Assembly: GCA_000218705.1 (NCBI GenBank)
Contig: GL947594.1
Location: forward strand, 647,876 to 711,875
Origin: Prochlorococcus marinus bv. HNLC1
Lineage (GTDB): Bacteria > Cyanobacteriota > Cyanobacteriia > PCC-6307 > Cyanobiaceae
Direction of reading: 5' to 3'
Length of the DNA stretch: 64,000 nt
Position numbers and translations under genes: made by a program. This document shows, in pieces, positions 41,192 through 47,723 of this stretch. The notes below the pieces were generated by a model. That model was given only the letters and a program-made list of their open reading frames with translations, did not search any database and was not told where the DNA came from. How positions within the stretch are numbered: position 1 is the stretch's first letter; each line of letters opens with the position of its first letter.

Positions 41192-41983
41192 TTAATTATC
41201 ATTTTCTCCTTTAATAAAAATAAGTGAAATAACACAAATTACGCTTATTGCAGGACCTGGAGATAAATTAAAAATCATAGAAATAGTAAACCCGATTATC
41301 GAAATTAAAAGACCATAACTTGATGATCTAATCATCGCAATCCTTAAACTAGGAGCTTTTCTTACACCCAAAAGAGTTGGAGTTGAAAGTAAAGCTATTA
41401 CGAGTATTACTCCAACAGCTGACATTGAACTTACTATTACTAAGGCAGTTGTAAAGCTAAGAGCTAAGTTTAATATTGAAACATTTATTCCGCTTGCAGA
41501 AGCCCCCTCTTGATCCAAACCAACATAAATAATTTTTTCATATCCAAATGTAATCAGACATGTAAACATTAAAAATGCAATTAAAGTTCTTATTAAATCT
41601 CCAAAATTTGCTGTTAATAAATCTCCAAATAAAACCGCTTCTAAGTCAATTCTTATTCCTAATATTGGGATAATTAAAACACCAAGACCTAGCATTCCCG
41701 CAAGGATTGTATTCATAACAGCTTCATAGTTTTCACTTTTTTTGTTAGTTAAACTTTCAGCGACAATTGCTCCAGTAAGACCACTTATTACTCCACCAAT
41801 AGATGGATGAACACCTAATGCCAGCGCTAAAGCTAAGCCAGGTAAAACGCAATGAGAAATAAGATTAACTTGAAGTAATCTTTTGTGAGTGATCAATACT
41901 GTTCCCATCGCAGGGCACAAAATACCTGTAAAGATTGTAATTATTAATGGTAATAGCCACCAATTTGAATAAAAAAAAGACAT
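41192..41983 (-). CDS. znuB: zinc ABC transporter permease
   Basis: 263 residues with about eight hydrophobic segments. PAMGTVLITHKRLLQVNLISHCVLPGLALALALG and the LGVRKAPSLRIAMI segment match the metal ABC-3 permease family. Its ATG is 17 bases from the divergent zur start. The ATPase gene znuC lies upstream on the same strand with zur, in opposite orientation, between them. Confidence 0.92.
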   Translation of the reverse strand: MSFFYSNWWLLPLIITIFTGILCPAMGTVLITHKRLLQVNLISHCVLPGLALALALGVHPSIGGVISGLTGAIVAESLTNKKSENYEAVMNTILAGMLGLGVLIIPILGIRIDLEAVLFGDLLTANFGDLIRTLIAFLMFTCLITFGYEKIIYVGLDQEGASASGINVSILNLALSFTTALVIVSSMSAVGVILVIALLSTPTLLGVRKAPSLRIAMIRSSSYGLLISIIGFTISMIFNLSPGPAISVICVISLIFIKGENDN

Positions 41984-42000
41984 TAATGGAATGATTCGGT

Positions 42001-42432
42001 ATGATCTTGAATACAGGTTTGAAAAATAACTCCATGCTTGGAATTGAATTTGAGATCACTAAAAGGCAAAAACATCTTCTCGATGAACTTCAAAGATGTG
42101 ATGATGAAATGAGTGGTCAGGAACTTCATAGACAACTTGTTAATGCTAATAAAGCCATGGGTTTGACAACCGTTTATAGAAATCTTCAGGTTTTGATTAA
42201 ACATGGCTTAATAAGGTCGAGACATCTTCCAACTGGCGAAGTCTTATACACTCCTGTTGATAGAGATATTCACCATTTGACATGTGTTCAATGTGGAGAG
42301 ACTTCAAAAATTGAAGGTTGCCCTGTGAAAGATATTCATGCTCCAAAGGAAAGTTCAAAGCAGTTTCAATTTTTATTTCATACTCTCGAGTTCTTCGGTA
42401 TTTGCCAAGAGTGCTTTCAAAAAAAAGCATAA
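42001..42432 (+). CDS. zur: Fur-family zinc uptake regulator
   Basis: 143 residues. Winged helix: MSGQELHRQLVNANKAMGLTTVYRNLQVLIKHGLI. Zinc sites: HHLTCVQCGE (CxxC) and GICQECF (CxxC), plus DRDIHHL. Placement among znu genes supports Zur rather than Fur. The ATG at 42001 is used; a later in-frame ATG (MLGIEFEITKRQ) is plausible. It lies tail to tail with znuC and head to head with znuB. Confidence 0.9.
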   Translation: MILNTGLKNNSMLGIEFEITKRQKHLLDELQRCDDEMSGQELHRQLVNANKAMGLTTVYRNLQVLIKHGLIRSRHLPTGEVLYTPVDRDIHHLTCVQCGETSKIEGCPVKDIHAPKESSKQFQFLFHTLEFFGICQECFQKKA

Positions 42433-42446
42433 TTTTATAAAAGATT

Positions 42447-43217
42447 TTAATCACAATCACATAAATTTTTTTCTTTTAAACAACAGATATCATCAAGTTT
42501 ATTTTGAACCTCTTTAGGCGTTCCTATCGCGATAACAGTTTTATCAAGAACTACTACTTTGTCATAAGCATTTAGAGATGAACCCCAATCATGACTACTT
42601 ATAAAAACAGCCATACCCGCATCAGCAATTTGACGGATAATTTTTAGAAATTCATCTCTGGCTGGAGGATCTAATGCTGAGCATGGTTCATCAAGAAGAA
42701 AAAATTTTGAGGGTGACATCAATGTTTTTGCTAAAAGGGCTCTTTGTTGTTGACCTCCGGATAAGGAATCAAGTCTTCTTTTCGCAAGATTTGATATGCC
42801 TACTCTCTGCATAGCAGCCTCTACCTCACAACATTTATTTATCCAAGTCTTTGGATTTGATATCAATTCTTTTATTTGAAAGGGTGAATCTTTTCTGAAC
42901 CTTGATTTCTTTATTTGTCCAAGAGCAACTAATCGTTCTACCGTTATTGGGAATTTCCAATTCATTGAACTTCTTTGAGGCATAAGAGCAACTTTATTTC
43001 TTACCTTTAATAATTTTTCACCATCTATAGTTATTTCACCTTTATCGGGTGCGCCTTGACCTTGCATTAATCTTAATAATGTAGATTTACCAGCTCCGTT
43101 AGGTCCTACTAATGCAGTTAGTGTTCCAGGCTTTATTTCTAAAGAAACTTTACTTATAGCAGGCTGTGTTTTTTTTGAATATGAATATGTAAGATTTTTT
43201 GCATTAAGTGTTTGCAT
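42447..43217 (-). CDS. znuC: zinc ABC transporter ATP-binding protein
   Basis: 256 residues. Walker A ALVGPNGAGKSTLLRLMQ (about 34-51), Q-loop LMPQRSSMNWKFP typical of metal ABC ATPases, signature [13 protein letters not shown], Walker [15 protein letters not shown]-loop ISSHD. The C terminus ends DDICCLKEKNLCDCD, rich in cysteine and possibly metal-binding. Divergent from znuA across 137 bases that hold a Zur-type palindrome. Confidence 0.92.
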   Translation of the reverse strand: MQTLNAKNLTYSYSKKTQPAISKVSLEIKPGTLTALVGPNGAGKSTLLRLMQGQGAPDKGEITIDGEKLLKVRNKVALMPQRSSMNWKFPITVERLVALGQIKKSRFRKDSPFQIKELISNPKTWINKCCEVEAAMQRVGISNLAKRRLDSLSGGQQQRALLAKTLMSPSKFFLLDEPCSALDPPARDEFLKIIRQIADAGMAVFISSHDWGSSLNAYDKVVVLDKTVIAIGTPKEVQNKLDDICCLKEKNLCDCD

Positions 43218-43318
43218 AGATCATTATTCTCTTATGACTCCATTATTAAACATAACAATATAGGTAAAATTAATTCGAGTTTCAAAACATTTTGCATTAA
43301 GACTTGATTAAATAAATG

Positions 43319-43335
43319 AAAATGATTATCATTTT
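43319..43335. promoter_or_regulatory. Zur box upstream of znuA
   Basis: AAAATGAT-T-ATCATTTT, a perfect 17-bp palindrome 19 bases before the znuA ATG and in the znuC/znuA divergent spacer. The ATGATnATCAT core fits Zur/Fur-family operators. Confidence 0.8.
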
Positions 43336-43354
43336 AAGATATTAAAATATTTTT

Positions 43355-45220
43355 ATGTCGATTTTTAAAAAAGCTTTTTTTCGCAAGAAGTTATTCAAAA
43401 ATAATTCATTGATAAAAAATTCTATTGTTGCAGGTTCGGTTTTTCTCTCAGCATTTGGCCAAGATGCATTTGCAAAGGATAAAAAATATGTTGCTGTTGA
43501 ACCTCTAGCTTGTGATCTTGTGAAGTCAATAGCTCTTCCTTCTGATCAAGTTAAATGCTTAGTTGGTAGAAAGGAAGATGTGCATGATTTAAAAATCAAT
43601 CCAAGACAAACACAATCACTTAGTAACGCTGATAAAGTTTTTACTCTTGGGAAAGAGATGACCCCAGCCATGAGAAATTGGGAAGAAAAATCTCAAACAG
43701 TTGTAGTTGGTGTAAGTGCAATTGATGTTGAAAATCCTTCGGGAGATTCAGGGGCTTTTGAGTGGGCGGGTGTTTTCGATCTAAGAGAAGGAAATTACAC
43801 ATGGTCATTTGCAAAAGTTGATGGAGATTATGCTGATCCTGCAATGAAAATGGTTATTTTAGAATCTAGTGATATAGAAGCTTCAGAAGATTATGCTTCT
43901 GAATTACTTAGTGCTAGTAAATCTATAAATAAAAAAAATAATGGTGTTCTAGTTCCAAGTGATAAGGCTTACACTCTTAAATTTGATCAAGATAAAGATA
44001 AAACTGTTTTTAATTTAGAAATTAAAAAAGATGGTAAATATGCATTTTTTACCGAGCATATGCCCTTTGAATTTGAAGCAGATGAACATTTTCTAAAGGA
44101 TCTTGCAAGGGTTGATATTGAGCCTATTTCTCAAGAACCAGATGTTGGAGGCCATGACGATCATGATGATCATGCAGGACATTCTGATCATGGGGCTGAA
44201 GCTTTTGAATGGGCAGGAACTTTTGATCTCCCAAAGGGAAATTACACATGGACCTTTGCAAAAGTTGATGGCGAATATGCTGATCCTGCTATGAAGATGG
44301 TAATAATTCAATCGGGAGATATAGAACAATCTGAGAAAATGGCATCAGATTTATTGGAATCTGATAACTCCATTAATAAATTTAATAATGATATTCTTGT
44401 CGCAAGTAAGGCTGCATATTCTTTGAATTTTGATCAAGATAAAGATTCGACAGTATTTAATTTAGAGATTAAAAAGAGTGGTAAATATACATTTTTTACT
44501 GAGCATATGCCCTTTGAATTTGAAGCAGATGAACATTTCTTGAAGGATATTTCTAGAATTGATATCGAGCCTATAGCTCAAATTCCTGACGAGGGAGATG
44601 GGCACCATCACCATCATCATGGGCATGGTTCTTTAGATCCTCATGTATGGCATGATCCCAGTAATATCATAAAAATGACTTCTGTTATTGGAAATAGTCT
44701 AAAAAAAGATATTTCCGTTTTCAATAGAAGAGATAGAAAATTAGTAAATGAAAGAATTGATTCTGTTAATTCAATATTAACTAGCTTAAATAAATGGGCT
44801 TTTGAACAAGTAGCTACTATTCCTGCCTCAAATAGAGTTATTGTCTCCAAGCATAAAGCTATGGATTATTATGGTGCAGCATATGGTTTTGAAACTATAA
44901 GTTTATTAGACACTTTGGGAGATTCATCTAGTTTAAGACCTGAAACTATAAGTTCAGTTTTAAATGAATTAAGAGAAGATAATGTTAAAGCTCTTTTCCC
45001 TGAGCAAAAGCCTGCTTCTAAATTGCTTCGTAATTTAAGCAGACAAAGTTCAATACCTCTTGCTGAAGATCAAATATTTGTAGATGGACTAATGCCCAAA
45101 GGTAATACTGTATCTGTTGCTGTACATAATACATGTACAATTGTGAATTCATTAGGGGGTTCATGTGATAAGGCATCGGGAATTGACCTTGAGAATAAGT
45201 GGAATTCGCTATCTAATTGA
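43355..45220 (+). CDS. znuA: zinc-binding periplasmic protein ZnuA with two inserted repeat domains
   Basis: 621 residues, about twice the usual ZnuA. Signal-peptide-like N terminus to about residue 40. First ZnuA lobe to about 125, with the zinc His in EDVHDLKINP (H77). Then two copies of an unnamed domain, residues about 135-260 and 284-409 (period 149), each starting FEWAGxFDL and containing YADPAMKMVI, FDQDKDxTVFNLEIKK and FFTEHMPFEFEADEHFLKD. They are separated by a His/Asp linker (HDDHDDHAGHSDH) and followed by six His (about 417-422). The second lobe has DPHVWHDP and VSKHKAMDYYG, the other zinc ligands. So a ZnuA fold is interrupted at its His loop. Duplication is recent, as the copies are very alike. 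Confidence 0.9.
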   Translation: MSIFKKAFFRKKLFKNNSLIKNSIVAGSVFLSAFGQDAFAKDKKYVAVEPLACDLVKSIALPSDQVKCLVGRKEDVHDLKINPRQTQSLSNADKVFTLGKEMTPAMRNWEEKSQTVVVGVSAIDVENPSGDSGAFEWAGVFDLREGNYTWSFAKVDGDYADPAMKMVILESSDIEASEDYASELLSASKSINKKNNGVLVPSDKAYTLKFDQDKDKTVFNLEIKKDGKYAFFTEHMPFEFEADEHFLKDLARVDIEPISQEPDVGGHDDHDDHAGHSDHGAEAFEWAGTFDLPKGNYTWTFAKVDGEYADPAMKMVIIQSGDIEQSEKMASDLLESDNSINKFNNDILVASKAAYSLNFDQDKDSTVFNLEIKKSGKYTFFTEHMPFEFEADEHFLKDISRIDIEPIAQIPDEGDGHHHHHHGHGSLDPHVWHDPSNIIKMTSVIGNSLKKDISVFNRRDRKLVNERIDSVNSILTSLNKWAFEQVATIPASNRVIVSKHKAMDYYGAAYGFETISLLDTLGDSSSLRPETISSVLNELREDNVKALFPEQKPASKLLRNLSRQSSIPLAEDQIFVDGLMPKGNTVSVAVHNTCTIVNSLGGSCDKASGIDLENKWNSLSN

Positions 45221-45231
45221 ATTAGTTTATT

Positions 45232-45249
45232 GAAATGGTTTTCATTTTC
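45232..45249. promoter_or_regulatory. second Zur-box-like site between znuA and the CobW gene
   Basis: AAATGGTTTTCATTTT differs from the znuA box at only 2 of 16 positions and keeps AAATG/CATTT arms. It lies about 55 bases before the CobW-gene ATG, suggesting Zur control of that gene. Confidence 0.6.
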
Positions 45250-45303
45250 TAATTTTCTAAACTATATTTAATAGTAGATTAATTGTTTGAAAACCATTTA
45301 ATT

Positions 45304-46662
45304 ATGAATTCTGAGAATAAGGTTCCAGTTACTATTCTTACAGGCTTTTTAGGATCTGGTAAAACTACTCTTCTTAATAGGATTTTAGGAGAGGAGCATG
45401 GAAAAAGAATTGCAGTCATTGAAAATGAATATGGTGAAGTTGGCATAGATCAGGGTCTTGTAATTGATGCTGATGAAGAAGTCTTTGAAATGTCAAATGG
45501 TTGTATTTGTTGTACTGTTCGAGGAGACCTCATAAGAGTTCTTGGTAATTTAATGAAAAGAAGAGATAAGTTTGACTATGTTTTAGTTGAGACTACTGGC
45601 TTAGCTGATCCTGGCCCTGTGGCTCAAACTTTCTTTATGGATGAAGAAATAAGTTCAGAATTTACATTAGATGGGATCGTTACTCTTGTAGATGCAGCTC
45701 ATATTGATCAACAGCTAGGACGCAGCAACGAGAGCTCTGAGCAAGTTGCTTTCGCGGATGTAATCGTTCTTAATAAGACTGATTTGGTATCCGATGAAGC
45801 ACTAACAAATATTGAATCAAGGCTGAAAGATATGAATCGTATGACTCGTATTATTCGAGCAAAGCAAGCAGATGTACCAGTAGAAACAGTTTTAAATCTT
45901 AGCGCTTTTGATCTTGATGAAGTCCTTAAAAGGAGGCCTAGTTTTCTAGAACCTGAATATCCTTTTGAGTGGAGTGGTGTATTTTCTTTGGAAGAAGGCA
46001 AGTATGAATTAATTCTTGAAGAAGGACCTGATCCAGAAATGTCTTTAGTGGCGATATTAGATCAAGGATGTACTGAAGATGAATTAAAGGAAGGTGCTGA
46101 ATCTTGTGTTAGATACTATGCAGAAGCTCCTGAAGAATTAACACCAAATAGCATTATCCCGTATGAGAAACATGTTAACTTGAATTTGCAAAGTCAAGGC
46201 AGTAAGAGATTTATCTTAGATCAGAAAAAATCTTCTAAAGTTGGACTTTTCACTCAACATACTGCAGAAGAATTTGAAATTAAGTTGAAGAGTTTAAATG
46301 AACCAAATTCTGGGAAAATTATATTACCTGAAAGTGAAAGAATATGGGTAGCAGAGCATGAACATGATGATGAGGTTGGTTCAATAGCAATCGAAAGAGA
46401 TGGGGATGTTGATCCTGAGAAATTAAATACTTGGATGGGTAAATTACTTGCTGAAAAAGGAGTTGATATTTTTAGAACAAAAGGTTTTATAAGTTATGCA
46501 GGGAATCCAAAACGTATAGTCTTCCAGGGTGTTCATATGTTATTTACAGCTCAACCAGATAAGGAGTGGGGTGATGAACCTCGAAAAAATCAATTGGTTT
46601 TCATTGGTCGAAATCTTGATGAAGAGCAAATGCAGAAAGATTTTGATAAATGTCTAATATAG
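45304..46662 (+). CDS. CobW/COG0523 GTPase, probable zinc chaperone, with inserted domain
   Basis: 452 residues from ATG 45304 (a TTG at 45283 would add 7). P-loop GFLGSGKTTLLNR, IENEYGEVGID, GCICCTVRGDL with the CxCC metal motif, ETTGLADPGP and NKTD mark a COG0523 GTPase. Residues about 221-325 hold a domain homologous to the ZnuA repeats: FEWSGVFSLEEGKYEL, DPEMSLV and LFTQHTAEEFEIKL. CobW_C follows, with VGSIAIERDGDVDPEKLNTW. A HEHDDE stretch lies before it. Likely delivers zinc under deficiency. Overlaps the WD40 gene by 13 bases. Confidence 0.88.
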   Translation: MNSENKVPVTILTGFLGSGKTTLLNRILGEEHGKRIAVIENEYGEVGIDQGLVIDADEEVFEMSNGCICCTVRGDLIRVLGNLMKRRDKFDYVLVETTGLADPGPVAQTFFMDEEISSEFTLDGIVTLVDAAHIDQQLGRSNESSEQVAFADVIVLNKTDLVSDEALTNIESRLKDMNRMTRIIRAKQADVPVETVLNLSAFDLDEVLKRRPSFLEPEYPFEWSGVFSLEEGKYELILEEGPDPEMSLVAILDQGCTEDELKEGAESCVRYYAEAPEELTPNSIIPYEKHVNLNLQSQGSKRFILDQKKSSKVGLFTQHTAEEFEIKLKSLNEPNSGKIILPESERIWVAEHEHDDEVGSIAIERDGDVDPEKLNTWMGKLLAEKGVDIFRTKGFISYAGNPKRIVFQGVHMLFTAQPDKEWGDEPRKNQLVFIGRNLDEEQMQKDFDKCLI

Positions 46663-47723
46663 AGCCATTTTCACCAAGAGGAATGCTCCATGAAGGTTGG
46701 AGCTCTGAGGTTGATGATTACGCAATTGTTTGTGGATGGGCAATGGGAGGAAAAATATTTGTTGTGGGTGACGCCGCTGGAGGTCTTTATGCTTTTGATT
46801 CTTTGAAAGGAAATACTATTTGGAAAAATGATAATGTTCACAAGGGAGGATTATTAGCAATATCTATAAATTTAGATGGAGATATTATTTCAACTGGCGG
46901 CCAAGATGGATGCGTTAGATTTTGGAGAAGTGAAGATGGAGAGGAAATAAAAAAAATAGAAATTGGTAAAGGATGGGTAGAACATCTCAAGTATTCTCCT
47001 GATGGTAAATATTTATCAGTAGCTCTTTCAAAGAATGCATACGTTTTAAATTCAGAAGGTCAAGAAATTTGGAGATCAGAAAATCATCCAAGTACTATAA
47101 GTGCCATAGCTTGGGCAACAAATAATGAATTGGCTACAGCTTGTTATGGCCAAGTGGCTTTTTACCAGATTAATAAAAATAAAATTAATCAAAAATTAGA
47201 ATGGCAAGGCTCGTTAATCTCAATGGTTATTAGTCCTAATGGGGATATTGTTGCTTGTGGTAGCCAAGATAATTCTGTACATTTCTGGCGTCGATCCACG
47301 GGGCATGATGCTGAAATGACAGGTTATCCCTGTAAGCCAAGTAATATCTCTTTTGATCATACTGGTACATTATTAGCTACAGGTGGAAGTGAAAGAGTTA
47401 CAGTATGGAGTTTTGAAGGGAATGGACCAGAAGGTACCATCCCAGGTGAATTAGGCCATCATACTCAACCTGTAACAAGTCTCTCTTTCTCAAATAAAGG
47501 AATGCTTGTCGCCTCTGGATCTAGGGATGGTTCAGTTGTAGTGAGTTTTCTAGAGAAAAATGGGAATGGTAATCCTGTGGGAGCAGCATTCTCTGGGAAT
47601 TCTGTCTCCGCAATTGCATGGCGACCAGACGATTGTGCAATTGCCGCTGTTAATTCTGAAGGTGGAATAAATTTATGGAACTTTAAAGTTAGAACTGAGC
47701 TTTCATCAAAAGGATTTGCATAG
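46650..47723 (+). CDS. WD40-repeat protein
   Basis: 357 residues. Repeats end in patterns such as GGQDGCVRFWRSEDG, GSQDNSVHFWRRSTG, GGSERVTVWSFEG, GSRDGSVVVSF and AAVNSEGGINLWNF, giving a probable seven-blade propeller. No signal peptide, so cytoplasmic. It starts inside the end of the CobW gene and is therefore translationally coupled, suggesting it works with that GTPase in zinc homeostasis as a scaffold or target. Confidence 0.88.
   Translation: MSNIEPFSPRGMLHEGWSSEVDDYAIVCGWAMGGKIFVVGDAAGGLYAFDSLKGNTIWKNDNVHKGGLLAISINLDGDIISTGGQDGCVRFWRSEDGEEIKKIEIGKGWVEHLKYSPDGKYLSVALSKNAYVLNSEGQEIWRSENHPSTISAIAWATNNELATACYGQVAFYQINKNKINQKLEWQGSLISMVISPNGDIVACGSQDNSVHFWRRSTGHDAEMTGYPCKPSNISFDHTGTLLATGGSERVTVWSFEGNGPEGTIPGELGHHTQPVTSLSFSNKGMLVASGSRDGSVVVSFLEKNGNGNPVGAAFSGNSVSAIAWRPDDCAIAAVNSEGGINLWNFKVRTELSSKGFA

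Follow-up and report, generated by a model that had tools for sequence, protein, structure and literature searches.

The loop of canonical ZnuA proteins is a flexible histidine-rich stretch, and in fusions of the ZinT/AdcA type a second folded domain is attached to a ZnuA-type protein. Genes of COG0523 subfamily 5 are described as clustering with WD40-repeat genes and znuABC, several of them with predicted Zur sites (Haas et al. 2009, PMC2770081), and a CobW/WD40/znuABC neighbourhood is already published. AztD, a periplasmic beta-propeller zinc chaperone often found near CobW genes, is reported to hand zinc to a ZnuA-type protein (PMC6689063), and ZepA is described as a Zur-controlled cyanobacterial zinc exoprotein with an immunoglobulin-like sandwich domain, the motif H-X2-9-H-F/Y-H and a PEP-CTERM, and is said not to occur in Archaea (PMC10957091). 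The window analysed here, a stretch of 64,000 nucleotides from Prochlorococcus marinus bv. HNLC1 (GCA_000218705.1, contig GL947594.1, forward-strand positions 647,876 to 711,875), contains a locus of this kind in which ZnuA has two copies of an unnamed domain of about 115 residues and the adjoining CobW (COG0523) GTPase has one. The surrounding systems are already known; the domain is the new part.

A sequence-only reading of the window had proposed that ZnuA and CobW have this domain in common, and its presence in the two proteins is confirmed. An independent profile was built from 36 copies, none of them from ZnuA or from Prochlorococcus, with L069 and L125 left out because genomes belonging to the phylum of the window contain the same domain sequences (L061, L062). 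Run against the 406 six-frame open reading frames of the window, this profile reached exactly the three copies, at the E values given below, and the best value among 8,120 shuffled frames (20 shuffled copies of the 406-frame set) was 0.052. Inclusion of L069 and L125 left the figures nearly unchanged (2.4e-28, 3.2e-20 and 8.4e-18; shuffled best 0.042). The CobW copy was also recovered at 3.7e-7 by a profile of 11 ZnuA copies alone, and BLASTP placed it against the two ZnuA copies of the window at E = 1e-9 and 4e-8, with local scores of 105 and 98, where 2,000 shuffles for each averaged about 27 and peaked at 56 and 51. The source genome (one contig, 90.74% complete) yielded three copies by single-sequence and by profile search alike. 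The two host genes and the parts that concern the domain are as follows.

43355..45220, plus strand: ZnuA, predicted exported zinc-binding protein of 621 residues with two domain copies (PF01297 ZnuA, E = 3.4e-39)
43757..44125, plus strand: domain copy 1, ZnuA residues 135-257, with His235 and Glu239 (independent profile E = 3.5e-20)
44147..44203, plus strand: His/Asp tract separating the two ZnuA copies, ZnuA residues 265-283 (read from the sequence)
44204..44569, plus strand: domain copy 2, ZnuA residues 284-405, with His384 and Glu388 (independent profile E = 7.8e-18)
44594..44629, plus strand: second His tract, ZnuA residues 414-425, directly N-terminal of the DPHVWHDP motif (read from the sequence)
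45304..46662, plus strand: CobW-type COG0523 GTPase, 452 residues from the ATG, with one domain copy (PF02492 9.3e-61, PF07683 8.4e-27, YjiA 1nij 1e-65)
45964..46305, plus strand: domain copy 3, CobW residues 221-334, with His319 and Glu323 (independent profile E = 2.9e-28)
46357..46371, plus strand: HEHDD tract immediately C-terminal of the CobW copy (H352 and H354 unchanged in all of the 27 CobW proteins aligned)

The landmarks of the sequence-only reading proved exact, with FEWAG at ZnuA residues 135 and 284, the histidine of TEH at 235 and 384 (a spacing of 149) and, counted from the ATG at 45304, FEWSG at CobW residue 221 and the histidine at 319; an alternative TTG start is possible for CobW at 45283. 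The CobW segment had been drawn as residues 221-325, of which the start stands and the end falls short, the domain extending to about residue 334. The ZnuA repeats had been called near-identical, but at 76% identity (85 of 112 residues) they are better described as similar, and since their DNA is equally 76% identical over these 112 codons (256 of 336 bases) they do not have the look of a fresh duplication.

Alignment to proteins of known structure locates the insertions. ZnuA belongs to its family by its Pfam match and by its alignment to solved members (4utp, a metal-binding lipoprotein, E = 1.9e-13), in which residues 41-109 correspond to 31-99, a weak stretch, and residues 423-584 to 132-287; both domains and their His tracts therefore fill the loop region of ZnuA. 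In the same way, CobW residues 5-214 align to residues 2-214 of YjiA and residues 355-447 to 221-313, leaving some 134 extra residues (214-355 in CobW against 214-221 in YjiA), so that the insertion point of the domain lies where the GTPase domain meets the C-terminal one. Although this CobW lacks the contiguous pair of domains seen in YjiA, it is a variant of the COG0523 family and still a member, with the GTP-binding domain, the GCxCC motif (NGCICC, invariant across 27 aligned CobW proteins) and the CobW C-terminal domain. Judged by its neighbourhood, it probably belongs to subfamily 5.

AlphaFold predicts ZnuA copy 1 as a confident beta-sandwich (predicted local distance difference test score, pLDDT, 89.6; predicted template-modelling score 0.81), with strands at 4-10, 13-20, 30-37, 72-76, 83-90 and 94-100, a helix at 41-53 and a short helix at 104-107 that carries the glutamate. 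The model of the whole CobW protein (pLDDT 83.4) places the same elements between its two known domains; compared with a fold library, this model retrieved YjiA and other GTPases and added nothing about the domain.

The observation is thus real; as the sequence-only reading held, the domain has no name, at least in the libraries searched, and it is more widespread than had been thought. A set of 42 members gave no convincing match in Pfam (best E 0.0013, DUF7055, in 4 of the 42) or in NCBIfam (best E 0.0048, in one of the 42), and in the PDB sequences a single copy reached E 0.46 at best and the 42-member profile found no match up to E 10, so that none of these libraries holds a match below 0.001. 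The weak Pfam matches with displayed scores (DUF7055, DUF5024, CBM_35 and others) all lie under their cut-offs; DUF7055, for example, covers only residues 86-118 of one member at 15 bits against a cut-off of 27.6. It had also been argued that the ZnuA of the window is not a fusion of the ZinT/AdcA type, and this holds: at E <= 1 its Pfam scan gave only ZnuA, DUF5024 and CBM_35 (the last two below cut-off) and no ZinT, and AdcA, which appeared among the NCBIfam matches, covers the ZnuA core only (residues 412-559) far below its cut-off. Literature searches, with subscription papers and supplements outside their scope, found no published description of the domain. Phage records searched for it gave no match, and among viral contigs 62 stretches fit peptide patterns, none of which encodes a relative by tblastn.

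The spread of the domain across genomes is wide but patchy. Seven plasmid records were retrieved with a ZnuA-type query (haloarchaeal ZnuA, haloarchaeal small hypothetical proteins and an Alicyclobacillus protein, one being unannotated) and eleven with a CobW-type query, the new ones being two from Pantoea, one from Paraburkholderia and one from Natrinema; by annotation, a WD40 gene also follows the host on the Paraburkholderia plasmid (L189). A scan of genome contigs with the CobW-type query confirmed the domain at 133 places, and the analysis drew on the best 80. By NCBI phylum these 80 fall into Poribacteria (29), Pseudomonadota (10), Acidobacteriota (9), Chloroflexota (7), Planctomycetota (6), Cyanobacteriota (6), Actinomycetota (3), Verrucomicrobiota (3), Bacillota (2), Gemmatimonadota (2), Nitrososphaerota (1) and bacteria without a phylum (2). 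Their hosts comprise 78 CobW-type proteins, some cut by contig ends, one CDF exporter and one polytopic membrane protein; the CobW form occurs in ten named phyla and both Bacillota copies are the other two hosts, a share of CobW that the CobW query biases, in a set where many records are metagenome bins.

The view of the domain as a feature of this znu/CobW locus was accordingly too narrow, as CDF, membrane-protein and small-protein hosts exist as well. The CDF exporter belongs to Paenibacillus alginolyticus (L127), and a second one (L186), 70% identical to it outside the domain, carries the domain near its C-terminal end beside a gene that we take to resemble regulators of the CsoR/RcnR type. 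In the membrane protein of Alicyclobacillus montanus (L140) histidine stretches lie around the domain; its candidacy as a NicO/RcnA-type transporter was discarded, as neither Pfam nor NCBIfam gave such a match. CbiM (PF01891, E = 1.3e-51) has as its neighbour a small protein (L167) that begins like a lipoprotein and contains the domain and a His tail, and in Natrinema versiforme a urease operon is followed by a small protein that consists of the domain with His stretches flanking it. A domain-bearing haloarchaeal ZnuA is found near two CobW-type GTPases, one of which (P0008), when translated, contains a His stretch and shows no domain copy when aligned. On the Haloarcula halophila plasmid a domain-bearing ZnuA is split over two frames (L037:3467-4776) and is a broken gene, while another ZnuA copy on the same plasmid (L149) reads through. 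An 873-residue ZnuA with two distant copies (L055, G270) was set aside, as a run of unknown residues separates its near-identical halves and it looks like an assembly artefact.

Counted by taxon, seed genomes included, the domain is present in 26 of 339 genomes of the window's phylum, in 3 of 299 of the class to which the Paenibacillus genome belongs (seeds make up two of the three), in 2/299, 10/161, 2/161 and 6/246 genomes of the phyla of four other seeds, and in 2/59, 2/159 and 1/5 genomes of three orders; the second genome of the first of these orders has the same sequence and coordinates as a plasmid match, plus a further copy. Among the 37 genomes of the window's genus, its own included, 23 carry the ZnuA form, 5 the CobW form only, and in 9 none was found with a single ZnuA-type copy as query, many of these genomes being incomplete. 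ZnuA copies among the relatives bear one domain or two. The picocyanobacterial ZnuA cluster CK_2462 is said to be almost absent from Prochlorococcus (PMC8786288), a scarcity that contrasts with the 23 of 37 genus genomes carrying a domain-bearing ZnuA; perhaps these proteins were clustered apart from CK_2462.

What the known hosts share is the handling of transition metals; their folds vary, as do the compartments in which they are expected and the direction in which they transport. The sequence-only reading had put forward a possible metal-sensing, docking or metal-buffering role. Because the hosts handle metals, a metal role is likely for the domain, and the explanation that we favour, tentatively and with nearly even confidence, is that it may be a portable transition-metal-binding module which, together with a His tract, would load the metal site of its host. 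The beta-sandwich, with its conserved polar residues (the E-W strand start, the D-P loop and the C-terminal H-x-P-x-E-F motif), would be coupled to a flexible histidine-containing tract, usually C-terminal of the domain, and would offer a metal site of its own formed by the histidine and glutamate of H-x3-E with the conserved aspartate and glutamate. Zinc, or in some hosts perhaps nickel or cobalt, would be exchanged between this site and the His tract, and the metal would thereby be pre-loaded or buffered beside the functional site of the host, which in ZnuA would be the cleft, in COG0523 proteins the GTPase site and in other hosts a transporter. The analysis establishes that the copies are homologous, which proteins host them, where they are inserted in ZnuA and COG0523, that His tracts lie beside them, which residues are invariant and that a fold is predicted with confidence; that the domain binds metal, which residues would be its ligands and that metal is handed over are what we infer.

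The evidence from conservation and from the tracts was taken on 170 distinct copies (partial and identical copies removed, near-copies kept) and on a non-redundant set of 69. An HxH pattern lies at most 60 residues C-terminal of the domain in 162 of the 170 copies (CobW 117/117, ZnuA 37/45, small proteins 4/4, CDF 2/2, membrane protein 2/2), compared with 10 of 401 control windows taken from window open reading frames of at least 200 residues, or 7 of 368 once the frames of ZnuA and CobW are excluded. Within 45 residues the pattern was seen in 66 of the 69 non-redundant copies, the three misses being first repeats of two-domain ZnuA proteins, which have HxxH spacing. Over alignment columns up to 105, the histidine and the glutamate of H-x3-E are each present in 69 of 69 copies, and the first Glu, the Trp and the Asp of D-P each in 68. 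Judging by strand order, the first Glu, the Asp and H-x3-E could meet at one end of the sandwich. As a separate observation, one Verrucomicrobiales CobW copy (L139:244-669) has a His-rich insert within the domain itself.

Several points weigh against this explanation. The L186 copy has a lysine in place of the first Glu, which rules that residue out as invariant and hence as an essential ligand everywhere. The proposed meeting of the four conserved polar residues is read from the order of the strands in the model. The tract in CobW is short, with no more than two or three histidines per 12 residues in 116 of 117 copies, and His-rich regions are reported in about 40% of 887 COG0523 proteins (PMC2770081), so that in CobW hosts the tract may be a family habit and the case for coupling comes mainly from the other hosts. 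Finally, the 69 copies share ancestry, 51 are of the CobW type and most were found with the CobW query, so that the counts are not independent.

An alternative that we regard as unlikely is that the domain docks onto a partner common to importers, GTPases and exporters, or onto the WD40 neighbour of CobW, and binds no metal itself. At 70 of the 80 loci the host is followed downstream by a relative of the WD40 gene (the others being L077, L085, L098, L125, L127, L130, L131, L136, L140 and L141, with the stretches of L085 and L098 ending shortly after the host), both ZnuA and CobW of the window carry the domain, and the beta-sandwich fold resembles that of many recognition domains. Nevertheless, a membrane is expected to lie between ZnuA and CobW, so that it is difficult to imagine a partner common to both; the CDF, membrane-protein and small-protein hosts had no WD40 gene next to them in the stretches inspected (by phmmer for L127 and L140, by annotation or lists of open reading frames for the others); and the fully invariant residues are a His and a Glu. 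In the same fetched stretches, ZnuA relatives were found at 33 of 80 loci and ZnuC matches, which may be any ABC ATPase, at 29 of 80.

Another explanation, improbable in our judgement, would make the domain a structural spacer that merely positions the flexible His tract, its conserved residues serving the folding. The HxH tract beside nearly every non-redundant copy (66 of the 69) agrees with it, as do the variation of ZnuA between one and two copies among relatives and the conservation of Trp, Gly and Phe, as in a fold core. A spacer has no obvious need, however, for an H-x3-E motif kept in every copy or for an Asp kept in all but one, although a structural role for these residues is possible.

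Structural comparison bears on a further proposal, which we consider quite doubtful, that of a jelly-roll domain binding a small molecule such as a metal chelate or a sugar in the manner of carbohydrate-binding modules. Upon structural re-alignment the best match was part of an alpha-L-fucosidase (Z 5.2, 86 residues, root-mean-square deviation 3.2), and the weak matches include CBM6 (Z 4.4), CBM35 (Z 4.2) and a p24 GOLD domain (Z 4.0). A Z under 8 may, however, reflect a mere common arrangement, Foldseek returned no match under 1e-3 for the domain model in the PDB, and the copies in CobW and CDF proteins are expected to be cytoplasmic, with no evident sugar role; the likeness to CBM and GOLD sandwiches is too weak to assign the domain to them. 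The viral library likewise gave nothing under 1e-3, its best match (6.5e-3, probability 0.98, TM-score 0.35) being part of an 894-residue phage protein with a BppU domain.

The best tree of the 69 copies was computed on 119 columns and leaves many forks unresolved; in it a branch (92/86) separates the 51 CobW copies from those of ZnuA, CDF, membrane and small proteins. The CobW copy of the window groups with the CobW copies of its relatives and with one genome of the phylum of the Chloroploca seed; the CobW copies L171-L177 from that phylum resemble marine picocyanobacterial ones, L171 standing beside them in the tree, and this likeness may reflect transfer or binning. Approximately unbiased (AU) tests did not reject a single group of cyanobacterial ZnuA and CobW copies (p-AU 0.151), nor a single group of cyanobacterial and haloarchaeal ZnuA copies, that is, one insertion (p-AU 0.466), and therefore one or several insertions both fit. 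An origin of the ZnuA copies from the neighbouring cobW is accordingly not the picture of the best tree, nor is it rejected. Chance resemblance or recent local copying between adjoining genes, without wider meaning, is very hard to credit: the independent profile and the shuffles contradict chance, homologues exist in archaea and Bacillota, and the same branch speaks against local copying even if the first AU test tolerates it.

The remaining features of the locus surround the two host genes.

41192..41983, minus strand: znuB-like metal ABC permease (PF00950 ABC-3, E = 3.2e-42)
42001..42432, plus strand: Fur-family regulator (PF01475 FUR, E = 2.5e-19)
42447..43217, minus strand: znuC-like ABC ATPase (PF00005, E = 5.6e-31)
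43317..43336, unstranded, between znuC and znuA: Zur-box-like palindrome TGAAAATGATTATCATTTTA (read directly from the sequence)
46650..47723, plus strand: WD40-repeat gene, overlapping the end of cobW (PF00400, E = 6.7e-29)

The znuABC genes, the Fur-family regulator and the palindrome in the znuC-znuA interval bear out the earlier description of a zinc-type locus. From its genomic place the regulator is probably Zur. The palindrome is called Zur-box-like after the Zur-box consensus, and the pattern search that matched it used a pattern derived from the window and is not independent. In Synechococcus WH8102 a Zur box is reported in the same interval, and the cluster synw0968-synw0973, which includes znuABC, is reported to go up in a zur mutant (PMC9337993).

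A broader version of the metal-loading explanation is possible, and we hold it with less assurance: a common module with its own site (Glu, Asp and H-x3-E) may have been reused, in bacteria and archaea alike, by proteins as different as zinc importers and zinc GTPases, CDF exporters and stand-alone lipoproteins. One hand-over part would then serve the uptake of metal, its delivery inside the cell and its efflux. The domain would offer a concrete, easily expressed module for studying metal loading of the COG0523 zinc GTPases and a sequence tag by which some 'hypothetical' proteins may be read as metal-related, and in marine picocyanobacteria it would bear on survival at very low zinc.

With respect to the known systems, the cobW-WD40 pair of the window and its relatives have the same neighbourhood as COG0523 subfamily 5, and the available parts of the account of that subfamily (PMC2770081) make no mention of an inserted domain. 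ZepA resembles the system of the window as a Zur-linked cyanobacterial zinc protein with a sandwich domain; its H-X2-9-H-F/Y-H motif is absent from the three window copies on reading, and it is set apart by its description. The jelly rolls of GOLD and CBM6/CBM35 have a similar overall arrangement (Z about 4 to 4.5), with no sequence relation found. AztD is a separate beta-propeller protein, whereas the domain of the window is a small sandwich that is mostly fused to its host. In contrast to the ZinT/AdcA fusions, the domain sits inside ZnuA, where it occupies, beside His tracts, the same region as the His-rich loop of the cluster A-I substrate-binding proteins; what differs is that proteins of the window type hold one or two folded domains there.

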